NCBI GenBank assembly: GCA_019239915.1
Contig: JAFAZF010000053.1
Location: 1 to 36,694 of the forward strand
Length of the DNA stretch: 36,694 bases
Origin: Sphingomonadaceae bacterium
GTDB lineage: Bacteria > Pseudomonadota > Alphaproteobacteria > Sphingomonadales > Sphingomonadaceae
Reading direction: 5' to 3'
The position numbers and the translations under genes were made by a program. Position 1 is the first letter of the stretch. Every line of letters starts with the position of its first letter. Below, piece after piece: positions 496-24,878 of the stretch. The notes under the pieces are model-generated. The model worked only from the letters and a program-made list of their open reading frames with translations, was not told the origin of the DNA and made no database searches.

Positions 496-2145
496 ATGGA
501 GATCGACTGTTTCCTCTATCCGGGATGGCGCCCGCTGATTCGGCCGGCGGCAAAGCGCCGCGAGTGGATGGACGAAACACCGGAATCGTTCGCCTATCGC
601 TGCCTGCCGCTGTCGATCGCCAACTGCCACGGCTGGGAGATCGGCAGCCCACTCGGCTTCTCCGCGATCTGGCATGGCGGCACCGATACGGACAGCGTCG
701 AGATCAGCCTCGATGACGATGGCGCGGCCGAGCTCGACAGGCCGGTCTCGCTGTTCGGGCAGGGCACGATCACCTTCCATGTCGCCGGCCTGTTCCGCAC
801 CTCGCCGGGCTGGAACCTCTGGGTCGGCGGCCCGTCCAATGCGGCCAAGGACGGCATCGCGCCGCTCGCCGGCATCATCGAGACGGATTGGTCGCCCTAC
901 ACCTTCACGATGAACTGGCGCTTCACACGGCCGGGGCATCGCGTGCGGTTCGAACCGGGCGAGCCGATCGCATTCTTCTTCCCGGTCGAACGCGGCACGA
1001 TCGAAGCCGCCTCGCCCCGCTTTCGCCCGATCGAGGAAGCGCCCGAGCTCCAGCGCCAGTTCGACGAATGGAGCCGATCGCGCAGCGCCTTCCAACAGCA
1101 CGTCCGCGAGCATCCGCCGAGCGCGGCCGCCGACAAGTGGCAGAAGCTCTACTATCGCGGCGTTGCACCGGATGGTTGCCCCGGGAGCGCGGGCCATCAG
1201 TCCAAGCTGCGCGCGCCTAGTTTTGCACCGCCGTTGCAGACGCCATGGCCGCGGCCTTCGGCCAAGTCCGACGGCGAACGGCGCGATCCGCCCGCTCCGC
1301 AGTCGAACCCCGATCCGCTCGCGAAGCGCGATTGGCTGCTCGTCATGCAGGAGCAGCTCCGCGCCTTGTCACCACGCGCAAACGACATCTATCGCTACGA
1401 CGACATCGACCCCGAGGCCTTCCTCGACGACCATTACGCGCTGAACCGGCCGGCGATCCTATGCGGCGAAATCGATGATTGGCCGGCGCTGAAACGCTGG
1501 TCCCCCGCCTATCTCGCGCGGCAGGTCGGCGCGGCGCCTGTCGAGTATCAAGGCGAGCGCACAGGCAACGCCCGATTCGAGCTGGAGAAGGACCGGCATC
1601 GGCGCAGCCAGCCATTCTCCGACTTTATCAAGGCGATCGCGCAACCAGGAAACGACGCCTATCTGACCGCCTATAATTCCGGCGCCAACGCCATCGCTCT
1701 CGCACCACTACGCGACGATCTCGGCCGCATCGACAAGCTGCTGGCGCACGGCGATGCCGCCGACGAGGGCATGCTGTGGATCGGGCCGGCCGGAACGTTC
1801 ACGCCGCTCCATCACGATCTCACCAATAACCTCCTGGTGCAGATCACCGGCCGCAAGCGCGTGCTGCTCGTACCGGCCTCCGAGACGCCGCTGCTGCAGA
1901 ACCATGTTCATGTCTTCAGCGAGATCGGCGATCTGCTCGATCCGGAAGCGGCGCGCCGCTTCCCGGAGATCGCGCGCGTGCGCGTCTTTGACGTCGAGCT
2001 GCAGCCCGGCGAGATCCTGTTCCTGCCGATCGGCTGGTGGCACCAGGTCACCGCGCTCGATTTCAGCGTGAGCGCCACCTACACCAACTTCCGCTGGCGC
2101 AACGACTGGCACCAGAGCTTCCCGACGGTGGCCGCGCGCGGCTAG
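496..2145 (+). CDS. DUF6065-JmjC/cupin_8 fusion, probable 2-oxoglutarate/Fe(II) oxygenase
   Basis: The protein has 549 residues. About 1-230 match the DUF6065 type (start MEIDCFLYPGW, then WEIGSPLGF and PYTFTMNWRF). A Pro-rich linker of about 50 residues follows, then a cupin_8/JmjC domain from about 290. The iron-binding facial triad is visible: H439 and D441 in PLHHDLTNN, and H516 in GWWHQV. JmjC proteins of this kind hydroxylate protein side chains using Fe(II), O2 and 2-oxoglutarate; the substrate here is unknown. No signal peptide is seen, so the protein is cytoplasmic. Its stop overlaps that of the convergent LuxR-type gene by four bases (CTAG). A TonB receptor and a second Fe(II) oxygenase lie nearby. 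The fold is well supported; the role of the DUF6065 part is not known to me. Confidence 0.85.
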   Translation: MEIDCFLYPGWRPLIRPAAKRREWMDETPESFAYRCLPLSIANCHGWEIGSPLGFSAIWHGGTDTDSVEISLDDDGAAELDRPVSLFGQGTITFHVAGLFRTSPGWNLWVGGPSNAAKDGIAPLAGIIETDWSPYTFTMNWRFTRPGHRVRFEPGEPIAFFFPVERGTIEAASPRFRPIEEAPELQRQFDEWSRSRSAFQQHVREHPPSAAADKWQKLYYRGVAPDGCPGSAGHQSKLRAPSFAPPLQTPWPRPSAKSDGERRDPPAPQSNPDPLAKRDWLLVMQEQLRALSPRANDIYRYDDIDPEAFLDDHYALNRPAILCGEIDDWPALKRWSPAYLARQVGAAPVEYQGERTGNARFELEKDRHRRSQPFSDFIKAIAQPGNDAYLTAYNSGANAIALAPLRDDLGRIDKLLAHGDAADEGMLWIGPAGTFTPLHHDLTNNLLVQITGRKRVLLVPASETPLLQNHVHVFSEIGDLLDPEAARRFPEIARVRVFDVELQPGEILFLPIGWWHQVTALDFSVSATYTNFRWRNDWHQSFPTVAARG

Positions 2146-3239
2146 CCGCCGATTGCGCCGTGCATACCGTAGCCGGCGAGCAGACGGACGAGCTCGGCCT
2201 GCCGGCTCACACCGGTTTTCGTGAAGATCGCCTTCAGCTGACTGCGCGTCGTCGCTTCCTTGACCCCGAGCGCGCGGGTCGCGTCGACGAGGCTGTCGCC
2301 CTCGAGCAGGCGGCGCGCGAGCCGCGCCTCGGCCGGCGTGAGATCGAACAGCACCCGCAGCAAGTCGGCACTCGGCACGTTGGCATTGTGTCCGTCCGCC
2401 AGCACGATCAGCAGACCGCGCGCGGAAAAGGCATCGCTCGCGCGCCCGCGCAAGGGCACGACGTGGAGGACGAAGGGCATGCCGCCCGCACGCGGCCGCA
2501 GCGGCAGCGACTGCGCCGCAATCGCGCCGCCGCGATAGCGGGCGAGTAGATCGGTGAAACGCAGATCGGTGTCGGCGCTGAGGAAGGCGAGCCGGTTCTG
2601 CCGTTCGACCACCTCGTTGCCGAGGCGATCGTTGAACAGGCTGTTGGCGGCCTGCAGGCGCCCGCCTTCGCCGACGATCGCGGCACCGGTGCCCAGCAGG
2701 GCGATCCCGTCGACAATCATGCGCGCTTCGTGCGCCTGCAGCCGCGCCGAGAGCGTCAGCGCGCGGGCGAGATGCGGGCGCAGCCGATCGAGGAATGGGA
2801 CGGCGGCGATCGCCTGCTCGTGCGAGCCGAAGCCCTCCATCACCAGCATGATCGCATCGTCACCCGCGCCCTGGATAACGGTTCCGGCGCCGGCGTCGAT
2901 CCCGTTGGGGATCAGGAAATCGCGATAGACCGGCATTGCGGCGCGCTGCCCGGCGTCGCGGAAGTCACTGTCGGTCTGGAAGCCGGGGTGCATCTCGACG
3001 AGCAGCGGGGCGCCGCGCTCATTCTCGTTCATCCAACCCTGCGCGATATAATCCTCGATGATCCAGACCACTTCCGGCGCGGCGGTCCATGATAGCCCGG
3101 ATGCCGATTTGGTGAAGAACAGACCACCCGCGGCGCCGCAGGCGCGACCGAGATCGCTGAGCACGCCAGGCCAATATTGCGGCTGCGCACCCGCTTCGTA
3201 GATCGCATCGAGCAAGCCCGTCGCGTCGAAGCGCGCCAT
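2142..3239 (-). CDS. LuxR-type helix-turn-helix transcriptional regulator
   Basis: The protein has 365 residues. The C-terminal part from about residue 300 is a clear LuxR/GerE DNA-binding domain: LTPAEARLARRLLEG, then the helix-turn-helix around ATRALGVKEATTRSQLKAIF and VSRQAELVRLL. The N-terminal 290 residues have no acyl-homoserine-lactone motif I can recognise. A PAS-like sensory segment (GTGAAIVGEGGRLQAANSLF) lies at about 180-200. It is transcribed divergently from the TonB-dependent receptor, about 200 bases away, so it may control the receptor, itself, or the convergent JmjC gene. That link is inferred from position only. Genes of this type near TonB receptors are common in sphingomonads. 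Confidence 0.85.
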   Translation of the reverse strand: MARFDATGLLDAIYEAGAQPQYWPGVLSDLGRACGAAGGLFFTKSASGLSWTAAPEVVWIIEDYIAQGWMNENERGAPLLVEMHPGFQTDSDFRDAGQRAAMPVYRDFLIPNGIDAGAGTVIQGAGDDAIMLVMEGFGSHEQAIAAVPFLDRLRPHLARALTLSARLQAHEARMIVDGIALLGTGAAIVGEGGRLQAANSLFNDRLGNEVVERQNRLAFLSADTDLRFTDLLARYRGGAIAAQSLPLRPRAGGMPFVLHVVPLRGRASDAFSARGLLIVLADGHNANVPSADLLRVLFDLTPAEARLARRLLEGDSLVDATRALGVKEATTRSQLKAIFTKTGVSRQAELVRLLAGYGMHGAIGG

Positions 3240-3368
3240 GTTCTCTCCCCAGTCCTGACCAACAACTTATCGCCGGCTGCGGCGAGGACAAGCGATTGAT
3301 CTTGTTGACTCCCTTGCGAGCTTGGCCGGCACGCCGACCATCGGCACGTTCCGCCGCTCATTTTCGCG

Positions 3369-3387
3369 ATTGCGAAGCGGTCGCAAT
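3369..3387. promoter_or_regulatory. Candidate iron-regulator (Fur-like) operator before the TonB receptor
   Basis: The 19-mer ATTGCGAAGCGGTCGCAAT is a perfect inverted repeat of 7-base arms around 5 bases. It overlaps a possible promoter with -35 TTGCGA (3370-3375) and -10 TAGAGA (3393-3398), 17-base spacer. It agrees at 15 of 19 positions with the site before tonB at 7557-7575. Assignment to Fur is inferred from the 19-bp palindromic form and from the iron-uptake genes. Confidence 0.55.
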
Positions 3388-3448
3388 AGCAATAGAGACG
3401 CTGTGCCTGCTCAGGGACGTACGGGCGCAACGAAGGGGAAATCGACAG

Positions 3449-5809
3449 ATGAAGACCGATGAGGGCCGGCGGACTCGCTCCGTCGCCGCCGGGCTAATGG
3501 CCGCGACCGCAACCGCGAGCGTGCTGGCGGCAGCGCCGGCCATCGCTCAGGACGCGGGTAGCGCCGCATCGGCGTCTGACAGCGGCTCCGTCCAACTCGG
3601 CCCGGTCAGGGTCGAGGGAGACGCGGGCGTGGCGCCCGCGGCCAATCCCTATGCCGACCCGGAGGCGCCCTACAAGGCCGACCGCCTCTCCTCGGGCAAG
3701 TTCGCCGAGCCGCTGCTGAACACCGCGCGCACCGCCACCGTCGTCACCAAGGAAGCACTCGAGGACAAGCAGGCGACGACGCTGCGCGAGCTGGCGCGCT
3801 CGACCGCCGGCGTCACGCTCGGCTCCGGCGAGGGCGGCAACGCGTTCGGCGACCGCTTCTTCATCCGCGGCTTCGATGCGCGCAACGACGTGTTCGTCGA
3901 CGGCGTCCGCGATCCCGGCGTCGCCATCCGCGAGAATTTCGACGTCGAGCAGGTCGAGATCCTGCGCGGCCCCGCCTCCTCCTTCGCCGGCCGCGGCACC
4001 ACCGGCGGCGCGCTCAACATCGTCACCAAGCAGGCGCAGGACGGCAACTTCCTGCTCGCCGAGGGCACCGGCGGCTTCGAAAGCGGCGAGCGGCGCGGCA
4101 CGATCGACGTCAACCGCCAGATCAGCCCGACGCTCGACGTCCGCCTCAACGGCATGATCCAATATGGCGGCGTCGCCGGCCGCGACTTCGCGACCGACAA
4201 CCGCTGGGGCGTCGCCGGCGCCGCGACGTTCAAGCCGACCGACGACTTCACGCTGAAGGCGAATTTCGCGCACAGCCGCATCTGGGGCCAGCCCGATTTC
4301 GGCGTGCCGTACAACCAGGTCGCGCGGCGGCCGGTGACGAGCGGCGACGTCTCGCGCTATACCTATTATGGTATCGCCAACCGCGACTTCACTGAGTCCA
4401 CTCAGGACGTGGGCACGCTCGACGCCGAGTGGCGGCTCAACGATTCCGTCACGCTCGAGAACAAGTTCCGCGGCAGCCATTCACTGCTCAACTATATCGG
4501 CACGATCCCGGAAAACCCCAGCGCGAGCGGCGCCACGGCACCCTATTCCTCCAGCGCCACGCACTTTTCGGGTTTCGTCCAGCTCAACGCGCAGAGCCGC
4601 TACGAGCCGGTGACGGTGATCGCCGACCAGCCGCAGGCGACGTTCAAGTTCGATACCGGCGAGATCCGTAACACGCTCGTCGTCGGCGGCGAGTTCTCGC
4701 ACGAGAAGATCGACATCAACAGCTACACTGGCTTCACCTCGGAGCTCACCACCGGCCCGGTCGCCTTCACGTCGAGCGGCGCGCCGATCGTGAGCGTCTT
4801 CGACCCGACCCATTACCTGTTCGGATCAGGTGTAGCGCATCTCGGTACGAACCCGCAGCGCTACCGCGTCGACACCAAGGCCGGCTATCTGATCGAGACC
4901 GCCAATTATCGCGATCTCGTCATCCTCAACGCCGGCGTGCGCTACGACGATTACGACATCACCTCGGCCAACAACACGAGTTCGCGCAAGGCGCATTCCG
5001 GCATCACCAGCTACAATGTCGGGCTCGTCGTCAAGCCGAGCAAGATCGGCAGCGTCTACGTCGCCTATGCGACCGCCGCCGATCCCGTCGGTGACGAGCT
5101 CGACGCGACCGCGAGCGCCTATGGCGGTCTCTCGCCGACGCAGAACGCGCTGCAGATCTTCGGGCCGCAGCGCAGCCGCTCGATCGAGGTCGGCACCAAA
5201 TGGGAGCTGTTCGATCGGCATCTGCTCGCCAGCGCCGCCGCCTTCCAGACGCGCGTGACCAATGCCCGGGAGACCGCACCCGCCGGCCTGCCCGGCTACA
5301 CCAGCGGCCAGATTGTCGCCGGCGCGATCTATCGCGTGCGCGGCCTCGATTTCGAGCTCGCCGGCAACATCACGCCGCAGTGGAGTGTGCTCGGCGGCCT
5401 CGTGATCATGGATCCCAAGGTCCGCAGGTCGATCAACCCGCTGAACGACGGGCTCCAGCTCGCCAACATCGCGCCGACGTCGTTCAACCTGCTCACCAAA
5501 TATCAGCTCACGCGTCGGTTCGAGCTCGGCGGCCAGGCGGTCTACGCCTCGCAGATCAAGGGCGGCGGCCTGCTCGCGGCGAACGGCAACGTCCCCTACC
5601 CCGGCACTCCGCGCCCGACGATCCTGCCGTCCTACTGGCGGTTCGACGTCTTCGCCGAGGCACGCGTCAATGAGCATCTCGAGCTCAAAGTCTATGCGCA
5701 GAATCTGTTCAACAAGACCTATTACGACTCGCTTTATCAGAGCGCCCAGCCGTTCATCGCCGTGGCGCCAGGCCGCAACATTCTGGTAGAGGCCGCGATC
5801 AAGTTCTAG
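3449..5809 (+). CDS. TonB-dependent siderophore receptor (Fiu/PiuA-like)
   Basis: From ATG 3449 the product has 786 residues. The start follows AAGGGGA and gives a proper signal peptide (basic [10 protein letters not shown], hydrophobic core, cleavage near AIAQ). The frame is open upstream to 3296, but that would place the putative operator inside the gene. The plug domain covers about residues 80-200, with [36 protein letters not shown] and [10 protein letters not shown]. The rest is a 22-strand-type outer-membrane barrel ending in a terminal Phe. The family imports ferric siderophores using TonB-ExbBD energy. The piuC-like gene 10 bases downstream mirrors E. coli fiu-ybiX and Pseudomonas piuA-piuC, which favours catecholate siderophores; the actual ligand cannot be read from sequence. 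Confidence 0.9.
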
Positions 5810-14134: not shown

Positions 14135-14812
14135 TCAGACCCGGCCGGTGACGGGCAGCAGCGCGCCGGTGATCGCCTCGGCATCGTCGGACAGCAGGAA
14201 CGCGATCACCTTGGCAAGCGATCCCGGCGCCACCCAGCGGTCGAACGACGCGTCCGGCATGTCCTTGCGGTTGACCGGCGTGTCGATGATGCTCGGGAGC
14301 ACCGCGTTGACGCGCACGCCTTGATCCTTGAGCTCCTCGGCAAGGCTCTCGGTCAGCTTGTGGACGCCGGCCTTGGAGGCGGCATAGGCGCCCATCCCGG
14401 CCGCCGCTTTCACCGCGCCGTTGGCGCCGATGTTGACAATCGCACCCCTCGAATTGGCGAGGTGCGGGATCGCGGCGCGGCTCATCGCATAGGCGGTGCC
14501 GACGTTGAGGCGGTAGAGCCGTTCCCAGCTCTCGGGCGCGCCCTCGCTTACCGTCTGCCAGACGAAGCCGCCGGCTATGTTGACGACGCCGTCGAGCGTG
14601 CCGTGCTTCGCGACGATGTCGCCGAGCAGCGCCTCGGCCGCGGCCGGTGCGCTGATGTCTTGGCCGAGGAAGGCGTCCGCGGCCTCGGTGGGCGCACCGC
14701 CCGTCGCGATGTCGATCGCGATCGGCTTGGCGCCGCGCGCCGCCAGCTCGGCAATCACCGCACGGCCCAGCACGCCGCATCCTCCGGTCACCGCGACGAC
14801 GCGCCCCTGCAT
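14135..14812 (-). CDS. Short-chain dehydrogenase/reductase
   Basis: 225 residues, one Rossmann domain. The cofactor motif TGGCGVLG is at residues 9-16, followed by IAIDIATG. The NAG motif appears as NIAGG, the catalytic Ser region as IVNIGANGA (an alanine or asparagine in place of the usual Ser), and the active-site YxxxK as YAASK. The C-terminal part has the conserved [15 protein letters not shown]. The altered catalytic serine is worth noting: the Tyr-Lys pair is intact but the IGANG segment lacks the standard Ser. Substrate is unknown, and NAD(P) preference is unclear. It is divergent from purC. Confidence 0.85.
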
Positions 14813-14901
14813 GGCTCACCCTTCCCTTCGATCCCGATGCGGGACGGCTACCGCCTCCCACGACCGCCAGCAAGCGTATCGCGCGCGCAACGGACGGCGC
14901 G

Positions 14902-14930
14902 TTGCGCGTCCGGGGGGCATGCGTTATATC
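14902..14930 (+). promoter_or_regulatory. Candidate purC promoter
   Basis: TTGCGC at 14902-14907 and TATATC at 14925-14930 form a -35/-10 pair with a 17-base spacer, about 94 bases before the purC start in the divergent gap between the SDR gene and purC. AT-rich hexamers are rare in this background. Confidence 0.4.
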
Positions 14931-15023
14931 TGCAGCCAACCGCCTCGGCTGCGCGTCCCTATCGGCGCCGCGTCCGGGGCGATCATCGTTTCAGGCGCAC
15001 CCGCGCCTTCCGGAGAGCAGCCG

Positions 15024-15800
15024 ATGGCACGCCGCCGCCAGATCTACGAAGGCAAGGCCAAGATATTGTACGAGGGTCCCGAGCCCGGCACGCTGATCCA
15101 ATATTTCAAGGACGACGCCACCGCGTTCAATGCGCAGAAGAAGGGCACGATCTCGGGCAAGGGCGTGCTCAACAACCGCATCTCCGAGCATATCTTCACG
15201 ATGCTCGGCGCGATCGGCGTGCCGACCCACTTCATCCGCCGGCTCAACATGCGCGAGCAGCTGATCCGCCAGGTCGAGATCGTTCCGATCGAGGTCGTCA
15301 TCCGCAACGTCGCGGCGGGCAGCATTTCCAAGCGGCTCGGCATCGAGGAAGGCACGCAGCTGCCGCGCACGATCATCGAATATTATTACAAGGACGACGC
15401 GCTCGGCGATCCGATGGTCTCGGACGAGCATATCGCCTGCTTCGGCTGGGCGAGTCAGGACGAGATGCACGACATCGCCGACATGGCGATCCGCGTGAAC
15501 GACTTCCTCACCGGGCTGTTCGCCGGCGTCGGCATCAAGCTGATCGATTTCAAGCTCGAGTTCGGCCGGCTGTGGGAGAATGATTTCAGCCGCGTCATCC
15601 TCGCCGACGAGATCAGCCCCGACGGCTGCCGGCTGTGGGATTCGCAGACCAACGAGAAGCTCGACAAGGATCGCTTCCGCCGCGACCTCGGCGGCGAGGT
15701 CGAGGCCTATCAGGAAGTCGCCCGCCGCCTCGGGCTGATGCCCGAAGGCGAGAACGCCGTCCTCGACATGGAGACGCACCGCCGCAAGCGCGGGCGGTGA
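15024..15800 (+). CDS. purC: Phosphoribosylaminoimidazole-succinocarboxamide synthase
   Basis: 258 residues from ATG 15024, chosen for the GGAGAG ribosome binding site 7 bases upstream and the standard N-terminus [24 protein letters not shown] synthase motifs are clear: [58 protein letters not shown] and [15 protein letters not shown]. It ligates aspartate to CAIR using ATP in purine synthesis. In many alphaproteobacteria purC is followed directly by purS and purQ. Here about 3 kb with a surface-lipoprotein cassette separates them. Confidence 0.97.
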
Positions 15801-15845
15801 CGCTGCGTTTTTGCGGCAAGGGCCCGCGATCGCAGTTCGATCACC

Positions 15846-15930
15846 ATTCGTGCTGAGCTTGCCGAAGCACTGTCCTTTAATGCGCCGGTTGAAGGGAAGA
15901 ACGGCACTTCGACAAGCTCGGTGCGAACGG
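15846..15930. repeat. REP-like intergenic element, copy B
   Basis: Two facing hairpin units. The left has stem GTGCT/AGCAC around GAGCTTGCCGA (about 15850-15870). The right has stem GCAC/GTGC around a core with TCGACAAGCTC (about 15905-15924), and ends in GAACGG. The cores belong to the GAGCTTG subtype shared with copy F. Confidence 0.85.
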
Positions 15931-15945
15931 AGCGCTGAACGCGAT

Positions 15946-15970
15946 CGCCTCACACGGAGGCGCTGTCTTT
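15946..15970 (+). terminator. Possible weak terminator after purC
   Basis: Stem CGCCTC (15946-15951) and GAGGCG (15957-15962) with a five-base loop, followed by CTGTCTTTAG. The T-tract is poor. If active it would separate purC from the lipoprotein-Slam cassette. Confidence 0.3.
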
Positions 15971-16033
15971 AGACGGAATTAACCAGCGCCAGCCTATTGC
16001 TCGCCGCGTCATTCACCCGACGGGAATAGGTTC

Positions 16034-17302
16034 ATGCGCAAGTCTCTCGTGCTCCTCGGCTGCACCGCGCTGGCGGCCTGCGGCGGCGGCAACGGCGCGG
16101 GGCCCACGACGGTCGGCGGCTCGGCATTAACCAGCAGCAATCCCAATGCAGATCCCGGGCCCGGCACCGGCGTGAGCTTCACCACCGACACCAGCGACAC
16201 GGGCACGACGCCGACCACCGGTACGGCAACGACGTTCCTCAGCGGCCTGACGCAGCCGAAGACCTTCAACGTGATCGGCGGCTTCCAGTCGCTGAGCGTC
16301 CTCCCCGGCGATGCCAACACTACCTACACGACGACATTGAGCGATGGCACCGTACAAACGACGGTTTATCCGGAGACGGAGACCTACAAGGGCGACGCCA
16401 CGACGGTGCAGAGCCCGGCCGGCAGCATCACTTACGATCCGCGCTCGGGTATCTTCACGCTGAACATCACAGACACGAACGCCGGCATCAGCAATAGTTT
16501 CGCCTATCAGGACCCGGCGCATCGCACCGATCCGGCGTTCACCCAATCGGGCACGCCGAACCTCGCCGGCTTCAACTATCTTGAGGCCGGGTCGGGCACC
16601 GACGCGACCACCTTCTTCTATCAGCGCCCCGGCGAGAGCACGACCTATGTCTCGCTCGCAGGCTATGTCCATAATGTCACGCCGTCGGGTGGCACCCAGA
16701 CATTCGAACGTGGCGCCTTCGTTATCGGCACACCGACCGTAGCCTCGCAGGTTCCGACTTCCGGGACGGGCAGCTACACCGGCGGCATGTTGGCGACGAT
16801 GGTCGACGAGCCCTATCAGACGAGCCGCCAAGACACCTTCTTCCAGTGGATCGCCGGCCAGAGCAAGGTGGACGTCAACTTCGGTAGCGGCGCGGTGAGT
16901 GTTGCTCTGAGCGGCACGGTCGGCCCGGTGACGTCGCAGACCGACACGCTCGACCATATCCCGACCATCACGCCGACGCCCGTCAACCCTCCGATATCCG
17001 CGCCGCCGACTATCGCCGCCGGCTCGACCTTCACCGCCAGCGGCACGGGAACGATCAGCTCGGTGTTTGCGGGAGGCTTTTCGGGCCACTTCTCGAGCGC
17101 CAGCTTCACCAACGGCGCTACAACAACGGCGGTGGACTTCTCGGCACCCGCCCCTGGGAGCAGCACGGCGGGCGCCAGTTCGATAGATGGCTCCTTCTAC
17201 GGCCCGAACGCCGTCAATGTCGGCGGCAGCTTCCGGATCACCGGCGGCGTGCCCAGCCAGCGTGTCGACATCCTCGGCGCGTTTACCGGCGCCAAGCACT
17301 AG
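16034..17302 (+). CDS. TbpB-like surface lipoprotein, probable Slam cargo
   Basis: 422 residues. A lipoprotein signal with lipobox LAAC puts the lipidated cysteine at residue 16, followed by a Gly/Thr/Ser/Pro-rich tether. The remainder is rich in beta strands. The C-terminal end (about residues 385-421: DGSFYGPNAVNVGGSFRI, then ILGAFTGAK) is the hallmark of the eight-stranded barrel of transferrin-binding-protein-B-like lipoproteins, which also occurs in other Slam-dependent proteins. A Slam homologue begins 24 bases downstream, supporting export to the outer leaflet of the outer membrane. The ligand is unknown; no receptor gene is adjacent, and the handle-domain residues for transferrin cannot be recognised. 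An environmental sphingomonad would hardly meet transferrin, so another ligand or a structural role is likely. Confidence 0.82.
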   Translation: MRKSLVLLGCTALAACGGGNGAGPTTVGGSALTSSNPNADPGPGTGVSFTTDTSDTGTTPTTGTATTFLSGLTQPKTFNVIGGFQSLSVLPGDANTTYTTTLSDGTVQTTVYPETETYKGDATTVQSPAGSITYDPRSGIFTLNITDTNAGISNSFAYQDPAHRTDPAFTQSGTPNLAGFNYLEAGSGTDATTFFYQRPGESTTYVSLAGYVHNVTPSGGTQTFERGAFVIGTPTVASQVPTSGTGSYTGGMLATMVDEPYQTSRQDTFFQWIAGQSKVDVNFGSGAVSVALSGTVGPVTSQTDTLDHIPTITPTPVNPPISAPPTIAAGSTFTASGTGTISSVFAGGFSGHFSSASFTNGATTTAVDFSAPAPGSSTAGASSIDGSFYGPNAVNVGGSFRITGGVPSQRVDILGAFTGAKH

Positions 17303-17326
17303 TCGCGCAGCGGGGGAGCACGTCCC

Positions 17327-18697
17327 ATGGCGCGACGGACCATCGCGCTCGTCGGGCTGGGCCTGTCCTCGTTGGCGCTGACCGGTTTCTCCCCCGACGC
17401 GGAGATCCTCGGCCAGCCGACCTGCGCGGACGGTGTCTGCACGACGAAGCTCACCGGCGCGCAGCTGCTCGACGACGCGCAGCGCCTCGTTCTCGCGCAC
17501 CGCTACGACGAGGCGAAGCCGCTGCTGATCGCGCTCGCGCAGGATCCCAAATACAGGATGGAGACCGACTTCCTCGACGGCTACGTCGCCGAGGAGACCG
17601 GCGACCTCAACACCGCCGCGCATTATTTCCGGCTCGTGCTGCAGGATCGTCCGGACGTTACCCGCGCCCGCCTCGAGCTCGCCCGCGTGCTGATGCTCCA
17701 GGGCAAGGACGACGCCGCCGACTATAATTATCGCATCGCCAGCAAGGACAAGGACCTGCCGCCCGAGATCGCCAAGACGATCAGCGATTCGCGCGACACG
17801 CTGCGCAACCGCCGCCGCTGGCACCTCAACGTCGATTTCGATCTCGTCCCCGACAGCAACGTCAACAACGCCACCGACGCGCGCGCGATCGACGTCACGC
17901 TCGGCAACACCACGCTGCCGCTCCAGCTCGACAACAATGCCCGGCGCCAATCCGGCCTCGGCCAGAGCGTGTCCGTCTCGTCCGGCATCCGCTTCAAGCT
18001 GCGCGACAATCTCGCGATGCTCGTCGATGCCGATGGCCAATTCGTTAACCAGAAGGGCAGCGCCGACGACGATGCCTCGGTGCTCGTCGCCGCCGGCCCC
18101 GAATATACGTTCAAGGACGGCACCAGGCTCTCGGTTGAGGCGCTGATGGCGAGCCGCTGGTTCGGCGGCAAGACGCTCACCCGCGGCCCCGGCGCGCGCA
18201 CCAACTTCCAGAAGAATCTGAGCCAGGGCTCGCGCATCGGCCTGCAGGTCGATGTCCGCCACAACAGCTCCTATTATGGCGGCGAGTTCGCCGGCTGGCA
18301 GGTCGGCGCCTATGGCAGCTACGAGCATATCGTCGATCACACGATGGTCGCCTCGCTCACGCTGTTCGGGGTGCGTCAGTCGCTCGGCTCGGCAGCCTAT
18401 TCGAACACCGAGGCGGGCTTTTCGGCCGGCATCGGCGGCGAGCTGCCGCGCGGGATCAACGCCGGCATCTCGGGGGGCGTCTCGCGCGCCTGGTTCGATG
18501 CGCCGATGGCGTTCCTCTCGCCCGAGCCGCGCCGCGACTGGAAGCCGAGCTTCCGCGCCTATGCCGGCCTGCGCAGCATCAAGGTCGCCGGCTTCTCGCC
18601 GTCGGTTACCTACACCTACAACGCATCGCTGAGCTCGATTCCGCTCTACAAGACGACGCGCAGCCGCGTCCTGCTCGGCATCTCGCGGTATTTTTGA
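17327..18697 (+). CDS. Surface lipoprotein assembly modifier (Slam, DUF560 barrel)
   Basis: 456 residues. A signal peptide (about 1-20) is followed by CADGVC (Cys 33 and 38, possible disulfide). A TPR-like helical domain spans about residues 45-155 (AQRLVLAHRYDEAKPLLIALAQDP, AEETGDLNTAAHYFRLVLQDRPDVTRARLELARVL). From about 160 an outer-membrane barrel begins with RRRWHLNVDFDLVPDSNVNNAT and ends with a terminal Phe (SRVLLGISRYF). This two-part build is that of Slam proteins, which move specific lipoproteins to the cell surface (the type XI secretion route). The upstream TbpB-like lipoprotein is the natural substrate. GGGGGAG precedes the start. After the stop comes purS, not a related gene. 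Confidence 0.87.
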   Translation: MARRTIALVGLGLSSLALTGFSPDAEILGQPTCADGVCTTKLTGAQLLDDAQRLVLAHRYDEAKPLLIALAQDPKYRMETDFLDGYVAEETGDLNTAAHYFRLVLQDRPDVTRARLELARVLMLQGKDDAADYNYRIASKDKDLPPEIAKTISDSRDTLRNRRRWHLNVDFDLVPDSNVNNATDARAIDVTLGNTTLPLQLDNNARRQSGLGQSVSVSSGIRFKLRDNLAMLVDADGQFVNQKGSADDDASVLVAAGPEYTFKDGTRLSVEALMASRWFGGKTLTRGPGARTNFQKNLSQGSRIGLQVDVRHNSSYYGGEFAGWQVGAYGSYEHIVDHTMVASLTLFGVRQSLGSAAYSNTEAGFSAGIGGELPRGINAGISGGVSRAWFDAPMAFLSPEPRRDWKPSFRAYAGLRSIKVAGFSPSVTYTYNASLSSIPLYKTTRSRVLLGISRYF

Positions 18698-18777
18698 CGG
18701 TCATCCGCCTCCGCCAAGAGGGAGGATTACATCGTCATCAGTTGCCCTTTGCGGCGCCATGCGCCATGGCCGCGGCC

Positions 18778-19005
18778 ATGAAGACGCGCGTCACCATCAC
18801 GCTCAAGAACGGGGTGCTCGATCCGCAGGGCAAGGCGATCCATCATGCGCTGGAGGGGCTTGGCTTCTCGGGCGTCAACGATGTCCGCGCCGGCAAGCTG
18901 ATCGAGCTCGATCTCGACGAGGGCGTGTCGGACCGCGACATCGAGGCGATGTGCCGCAAGCTCCTCGCCAACACCGTGATCGAGAATTTCCGCATCGAGC
19001 GATGA
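18778..19005 (+). CDS. purS: Phosphoribosylformylglycinamidine synthase subunit PurS
   Basis: 75 residues from ATG 18778 (MKTRVTITLKNGVLDPQGKAIHHALEGLGF). The frame is open upstream into the end of the Slam gene, but only this start matches PurS length (about 75-80). Typical features are the alpha/beta fold with VNDVRAGKLIELDLD and the C-terminal MCRKLLANTVIENFRIE. PurS is the small structural subunit that joins PurL with glutaminase PurQ in the three-part FGAM synthase. purQ follows after 124 bases that contain a REP-like element; purL is not in the window. Confidence 0.95.
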   Translation: MKTRVTITLKNGVLDPQGKAIHHALEGLGFSGVNDVRAGKLIELDLDEGVSDRDIEAMCRKLLANTVIENFRIER

Positions 19006-19029
19006 CCGCCGCTGCTGAAACGAGGAGGA

Positions 19030-19107
19030 CCGTTCGTGCCGAGCGCAGTCGAGGCACGCTGATGTATCACCTGCCGCACGTCCCTCGACTTCGCTCGGGA
19101 CGAACGG
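19030..19107. repeat. REP-like intergenic element, copy C
   Basis: The left unit has stem GTGCC/GGCAC around GAGCGCAGTCGA; the right unit has stem GTCCC/GGGAC around TCGACTTCGCTC. The outer ends CCGTTC (19030) and GAACGG (19107) complement each other. It lies between purS and purQ. Confidence 0.9.
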
Positions 19108-19129
19108 AAGCTTGGCCGGAAGGCACGAC

Positions 19130-19795
19130 ATGAAGACCGCCGTGATCGTCTTCCCTGGCTCCAACTGCGATCGCGATCTCGCCGTCGCGCTCGAGCAGAC
19201 CACCGGCCGGAAGCCTGCCATGGTCTGGCATCGCGAGAGCGCGCTTCCCGAAGGTACCGCTCTCGTCGCGGTGCCCGGCGGCTTCTCCTATGGCGACTAT
19301 CTGCGCTCGGGCGCGATGGCAGCGCGCTCGCCGATCATGAAGGCGGTGGTCGAGGCCGCCGGCCGCGGCACCGCGGTGCTCGGCGTCTGCAACGGCTTCC
19401 AGATCCTCACCGAGGCCGGGCTGCTGCCGGGTGCGCTGATGCGCAACGCCGGTCTTTCCTTCGTCTGCCGTGACGTGCCGCTGACCATCGCCACCAGCCA
19501 GTCCGCCTTCACCAGCCGCTACGAGGCGGACGAGGCGCTCTCCATCCCGGTCGCGCATCATGACGGCAACTACTTCGCCGACGACGAGACGCTCGATCGG
19601 CTGGAAGGCGAAGGCCGCGTCGCCTTCCGCTACGCCGAGGACGTCAACGGTTCGGCGCGCGACATCGCCGGCATCATCAACGAAGCGGGCAACGTGCTCG
19701 GCATGATGCCGCATCCCGAGCGAGTCATCGAGGCCGCGCATGGGCGGACAGACGGACGGCGGCTGTTCGAAGGGCTGGTCGCAGCGCTGGCGTAA
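19130..19795 (+). CDS. purQ: Phosphoribosylformylglycinamidine synthase subunit PurQ
   Basis: 221 residues from ATG 19130, with GGAAGG six bases upstream; a TTG six codons earlier is less likely. Start [17 protein letters not shown] is typical. The class I glutamine amidotransferase triad is visible: the nucleophile Cys in GVCNGFQIL (about residue 87) and the His and Glu of [10 protein letters not shown] near residues 198-200. PurQ releases ammonia from glutamine for the PurL-catalysed conversion of FGAR to FGAM. It belongs with purS just upstream. Confidence 0.97.
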
Positions 19796-24794: not shown

Positions 24795-24797
24795 CGG

Positions 24798-24878
24798 CCG
24801 TTCGCCCTGAGCTTGCCGAAGGGCTATTCTTCTCGGCGGGCAAGAAAAAGCAGGGCTCGACAGACTCAGCCCGAACGG
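24798..24878. repeat. REP-like intergenic element, copy F
   Basis: The left unit has stem GCCCT/AGGGC around GAGCTTGCCGA; the right unit has GGGCT/AGCCC around CGACAGACTC, a more divergent core. Outer ends CCGTTC and GAACGG. It lies between convergent purK and the 101-residue protein gene. Confidence 0.85.

Follow-up and report, generated by a model that had tools for sequence, protein, structure and literature searches.

A TbpB-like lipoprotein and a Slam-family protein form a tightly linked gene pair in Sphingomonadales

The window analyzed here is a 36,694-nucleotide stretch of DNA from a Sphingomonadaceae bacterium (GenBank assembly GCA_019239915.1, contig JAFAZF010000053.1, positions 1–36,694 of the forward strand). 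Two open reading frames (ORFs) on its + strand are the subject of this study. The first, at 16034–17302, encodes a putative Slam-cargo surface lipoprotein of 422 residues (hereafter the cargo), recognized by its ORF, a Pfam TbpB_B_D match and its predicted fold. The second, at 17327–18697, encodes a 456-residue protein of the Slam/SlipAM family, the outer-membrane protein of the type 11 secretion system (T11SS). The first-pass annotation of the window had given the same coordinates and the same spacing of 24 bases between the two ORFs. The whole genome contains one TbpB_B_D-type and one Slam-family match (E ≤ 0.001). The two genes very probably constitute a dedicated exporter–cargo pair that displays a TbpB-like lipoprotein on the cell surface.

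A cargo-profile search of named genomes gave 94 relatives, 80 of which were kept for locus counts; an earlier scan of genome contigs with the window Slam alone as query found no match, and it was the scan with the cargo alignment that yielded relatives. Start codons of the relatives were set by a scripted rule. Of the usable relatives, the family alignments include 68 of 78 for the cargo (A3) and 65 of 75 for the Slam (A4); 10 sequences judged to be near-copies by title and position had been dropped from each. In 79 of the 80 loci a Slam match lies just 3′ of the cargo on the same strand, and in the remaining one the sequence ends one base past the cargo match, at the contig edge. The gap between the two genes ranges from −29 to 95 bases (76 loci with both ORFs called). 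Furthermore, cargo and Slam distances are correlated (r = 0.84 over 44 loci), with a coefficient of 0.70 after regression on purC. Given this linkage and correlation, the possibility that the two genes are chance neighbours was rejected. Sphingomonadales titles are carried by 78 of the 80 loci; the others are an unspecified alphaproteobacterial metagenome-assembled genome (L174) and a locus titled Microvirga sp. SRT01 (L118). The pair is thus a tightly linked module of Sphingomonadales. The Slam of L118 clusters closely with that of Sphingomonas sp. Leaf343, and this assembly is probably mislabelled.

Within the family of the window, 44 of 397 genomes, spread over 20 of 96 genera, gave a cargo match, whereas the nine further genomes of the genus to which the window belongs gave none. 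From these 44 genomes the window's own locus and 39 others were inspected, the four weakest matches (G263, G283, G292 and G420) being left out; the 39 loci overlap with the 80-locus set. On other Slam branches in the order, the Slam is adjoined by a different TbpB-barrel ORF of its own (L007, 187–1227, on the opposite strand; L017, 169–1494). In L012, an ORF with an autotransporter beta-domain (5–1252) ends where the reading frame of the Slam homologue begins.

The cargo starts with a signal peptide bearing the lipobox LAAC (residues 13–16, ending in Cys16), which is followed by a T/G/P-rich linker (residues ~17–75; 16 Thr and 6 Pro among 59 residues), a TbpB-type handle (~76–232) and an 8-stranded barrel (~245–421). 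Among relatives, 78 of the 79 called cargo ORFs have a lipobox by pattern. TbpB_B_D matches residues 349–420 at 32.7 bits, over the cut-off of 26, and is matched by all 69 members of the cargo family at E ≤ 0.1. A profile of this 69-sequence family also matched the C-lobe of TbpB in the PDB (E 8.4e-9). The predicted structure has one handle–barrel lobe with an 8-stranded C-terminal barrel of the TbpB type, and a two-lobed cargo was rejected on this ground. Profile search and structure prediction thus both uphold the earlier proposal of a lipoprotein with a TbpB-type C-terminal barrel. The same annotation could match the large N-terminal part to no known family. That view is now superseded. In a structural alignment, residues 78–422 of the predicted cargo cover 210 of 232 C-lobe residues of TbpB, those of the handle among them. 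An unmatched fold was therefore rejected, and we assign the N-terminal part as a handle of the TbpB type. HphA appears among the matches by fold only, in a list that was drawn from Foldseek's own matches and covers no further families.

The partner matches Pfam SlipAM/DUF560 (PF04575) over the entire model (positions 1–288 of 288) at 70.4 bits, with a cut-off of 22, and DUF560 is matched by 66 of 66 Slam-family members (E ≤ 0.001). The DUF560 barrel occupies residues 165–456 and ends in a terminal Phe, whereas TPR matches fall within residues 80–137. TPR_19 passes its cut-off (27.7 bits against 25), and TPR_Slam stays under it (29.1 against 35.2). The profile search therefore agrees with the earlier assignment of the partner as a TPR-plus-DUF560 protein. 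A rough amphipathicity scan, which yields no strand count, marked 17 candidate stretches. Close to the N-terminus, residues C33 and C38 are kept in 90% or more of the aligned family, and could form a disulfide.

TonB receptors occur in 120 of 185 Slam clusters, according to data in Hooda 2017 (PMC5449769). With a plug-domain hidden Markov model (HMM) trained on 19 of the 22 plug matches in this genome, we found no TonB receptor adjoining the pair in the flanks of the 80 loci, the nearest lying ~2.9 kb away. Matches anywhere in the flanks occur in 7 of the 80 loci, against 5.9 expected from this genome's density. A receptor-linked uptake cluster consequently has no support, as the matches are at background level and none adjoins. 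The earlier remark that no receptor gene adjoins proved true, but the window does contain a TonB-dependent receptor (3296–5809), 10.2 kb upstream of the pair and with no sign of a link to it. The accompanying view of transferrin as an unlikely ligand is strengthened, because the pair is conserved over 80 loci and TonB receptors are not enriched around it.

We propose a putative model for the action of the pair. The lipoprotein would bear a signal peptide when synthesized, receive its lipid on Cys16 and travel to the outer membrane. Slam, with its TPR region and outer-membrane barrel, would then recognise the C-terminal TbpB-type barrel of the cargo and move the lipoprotein to the surface. There, the lipid and the flexible T/G/P-rich linker of ~60 residues would tether the cargo with its handle outward. 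By analogy with the known Slam family, the cargo would be lipidated and translocated, and we have high confidence in its display on the surface. Several observations weigh against this reading of the pair. The Foldseek TM-scores are low (for the isolated C-lobe, 0.52 when normalised by target length), and the root-mean-square deviation is large on two-lobed targets. The cargo reaches 20.1 bits with the NCBIfam slam_lipo equivalog NF041636, under its cut-off of 80; this model is matched by 64 of the 69 cargo-family members at E ≤ 0.1, with a best E value of 2.5e-9. In addition, 21 plug matches in the genome exceed the cut-off of Pfam, so that a receptor could be coded elsewhere, and some loci have short flanks, in which a receptor past the contig end would be missed.

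Compared with Slam1 and Slam2, the sphingomonad partner is alike in its TPR part, its full-length PF04575 barrel and its place beside a TbpB-barrel lipoprotein; the pair differs in having one dedicated cargo and no adjoining TonB receptor, and in its occurrence in Sphingomonadales. TbpB proper has two handle–barrel lobes and a linked TbpA-type receptor, whereas the cargo has one lobe and no adjoining TonB receptor. From hemophilin HphA and HpuA the cargo likewise differs by the lack of an adjoining TonB receptor, and it is lipidated by pattern; most TXISS-1B cargo of the hemophilin type is described as soluble (Grossman 2021, PMC8406197). The NilB–NilC system of Xenorhabdus also comprises a surface lipoprotein, NilC, for which an interaction with host glycans was proposed, and a DUF560 partner, NilB (PMC9100927); the likeness of the cargo to NilC is by description only. 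Also by description, the pair resembles TXISS subcluster 1C and the Sphingomonas surface proteins, in which environmental Sphingomonadaceae Slams and TbpB-barrel cargo are reported. Subcluster 1C of DUF560 proteins is largely made up of environmental Sphingomonadaceae, and TbpB-barrel neighbours were mapped for cluster 1 (Grossman 2021, PMC8406197). The published 'Sphingomonas surface proteins' contain two to three handle–barrel pairs after proline–threonine repeats (Grossman 2025, PMC12282271). In contrast, the cargo has a single handle–barrel pair behind a T/G/P-rich linker, and because of this single pair it is not of the published Sphingomonas architecture. The same paper describes a lipidated haemophilin-like group 2, to which the cargo may belong. 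Published work thus already covers Slams of environmental Sphingomonadaceae, Sphingomonas cargo with TbpB barrels and the co-occurrence of Slams with nucleotide-synthesis genes. The environmental alphaproteobacterial setting to which the first-pass annotation drew attention is real but not surprising, since subcluster 1C and the Sphingomonas TbpB barrels had been reported in these two papers.

Because no TonB receptor travels with the pair, the cargo may act more like NilC than like TbpB. As its most likely role, we tentatively propose a receptor-independent surface ligand binder or an adhesin-like protein, an assignment that falls somewhat short of an even chance. The outer membrane of sphingomonads contains glycosphingolipid, and the cargo may in particular be a surface adhesin or glycan binder, as proposed for NilC, or a structural protein of this membrane; this is a serious possibility, although not yet a probable one. 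The missing receptor partners and an all-beta handle that is almost as conserved as the barrel (in the cargo family, pairwise identity averages 0.46 against 0.51) together lean to adhesion or to glycan or lipid binding, and such a handle fits a shared, constant ligand. NilC provides a precedent, as described in PMC9100927. However, a handle loop (residues 182–192 in the window) spans 11 to 50 residues across the family, and the barrel is clearly better kept in its C-terminal half (0.58) than the handle is, so the binding face may differ among species. Alternatively, the cargo might be a metal or heme co-receptor that passes heme, a siderophore or another nutrient to an unlinked TonB-dependent receptor. 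We consider this rather unlikely, as receptors in the flanks of the 80 loci are at background density and never adjoin, no Cys outside the lipobox is kept in at least 40% of the members, and the best-kept His, at position 163, is present in 53 of 69.

The pair resides in a purine-synthesis locus. Upstream lies purC, coding for SAICAR synthetase (15024–15800, + strand; Pfam was searched with a longer ORF, 14577–15800), and downstream lie purS (18778–19005, + strand, ATG at 18778; Pfam PurS 100.4 bits, cut-off 22.2) and purQ (19130–19795, + strand; Pfam GATase_5). Among the 80 loci, 46 have the pair between purC and purS–purQ, with purC on the same strand in 45 and on the other strand, 7.7 kb off, in L171; purC alone is present in 7, purQ alone in 4 and neither in 23, of which 5 have short flanks. 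At least one pur gene is therefore near the pair in 57 of 80 loci, and these counts are lower bounds, because some contigs end close to the pair. Up to 23 pairs are located away from pur genes, for example near dnaA, ftsH or dxs. No description of the purC–Slam arrangement was found among the literature matches listed.

What follows purC varies in relatives. An acyltransferase follows purC in eight of the nine same-genus genomes (Pfam run on three), with purS behind it in seven, and purS follows directly in the ninth. In 28 other family loci, the 1.5 kb past purC hold the pair in 6, purS within 279 bases in 5 and purS at 631 bases in 1, the other 16 being unresolved at this length. For 20 family genomes (15 of these 16 and 5 more) the search was extended: an ORF of ~960 residues precedes purS in 3, purS follows directly in 1, and no purS was seen in the 8 kb covered in 16. 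Both of the two ~960-residue ORFs scanned, out of the three, match an M16 peptidase. Gene content between purC and purS is variable: this site holds acyltransferase_3, the ~960-residue ORF, the Slam pair or nothing (L097–L105, L237, L241, L245).

When the pur place, taken as any pur gene nearby (55 of 76), is mapped on a tree of the 76 Slams, 5 changes suffice, compared with 18.5 in shuffles, and the place occurs on both sides of the midpoint root. These few changes and the presence on both sides are as expected of an old inherited order. Most likely, the pur place is an old inherited gene order that has undergone several moves or losses, and its slot can be occupied by unrelated genes as well. 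A mobile insertion as its cause is not favoured in view of the few changes on the tree, although this tree is rooted at its midpoint and relatives vary in what the slot contains. Grossman 2025 (PMC12282271) reports that Slams co-occur with nucleotide-synthesis, purine and one-carbon genes, mostly discusses this as a functional link, and allows 'coordinate regulation or inheritance' for one gene. Such a functional place, in which the cargo would aid nucleobase- or folate-related uptake or be co-regulated with purine synthesis, could draw on this co-occurrence and on the loci counted above. Nevertheless, it appears quite improbable, given the acyltransferase or empty slot after purC in the same genus, the ~960-residue ORF before purS in 3 of 20 other family genomes, the pairs away from pur genes and the tree itself. 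In this lineage, gene order suffices to explain why Slam and nucleotide-synthesis genes co-occur.

Taken further, the old gene order and the exporter–cargo reading would make the single-lobe cargo and its Slam a receptor-free pair, fixed since early Sphingomonadales and mostly kept in the purine locus, with a surface role other than host iron, namely in adhering to, or organising, the outer membrane with its glycosphingolipids. This broader scenario is doubtful, and the patchy occurrence in the family, with no cargo in the nine other genomes of the genus, speaks against it. If the scenario is true, the piracy of iron would be a single specialised application of a broader system for surface display. 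A minimal Slam–cargo pair of one lobe and one transporter in environmental bacteria, with no adjoining receptor, is in any case useful for asking about Slam roles outside hosts. It also advises caution, as the published co-occurrence of Slams with nucleotide synthesis can be explained in this lineage by one old inherited gene order instead of a shared function.

A scan of the + strand at 15750–19150 found no consensus promoter, and two terminator-like sites ahead of the cargo are at chance level. Upstream of the pair, at 496–5809 of the window, a DUF6065/cupin_8 gene and the TonB-dependent receptor share a strand and are separated by a minus-strand ORF that has no Pfam match. A 25-base repeat (15907–15931) is located between purC and the cargo; it has one further exact copy in the genome and a copy with 3 mismatches at 24797–24821.
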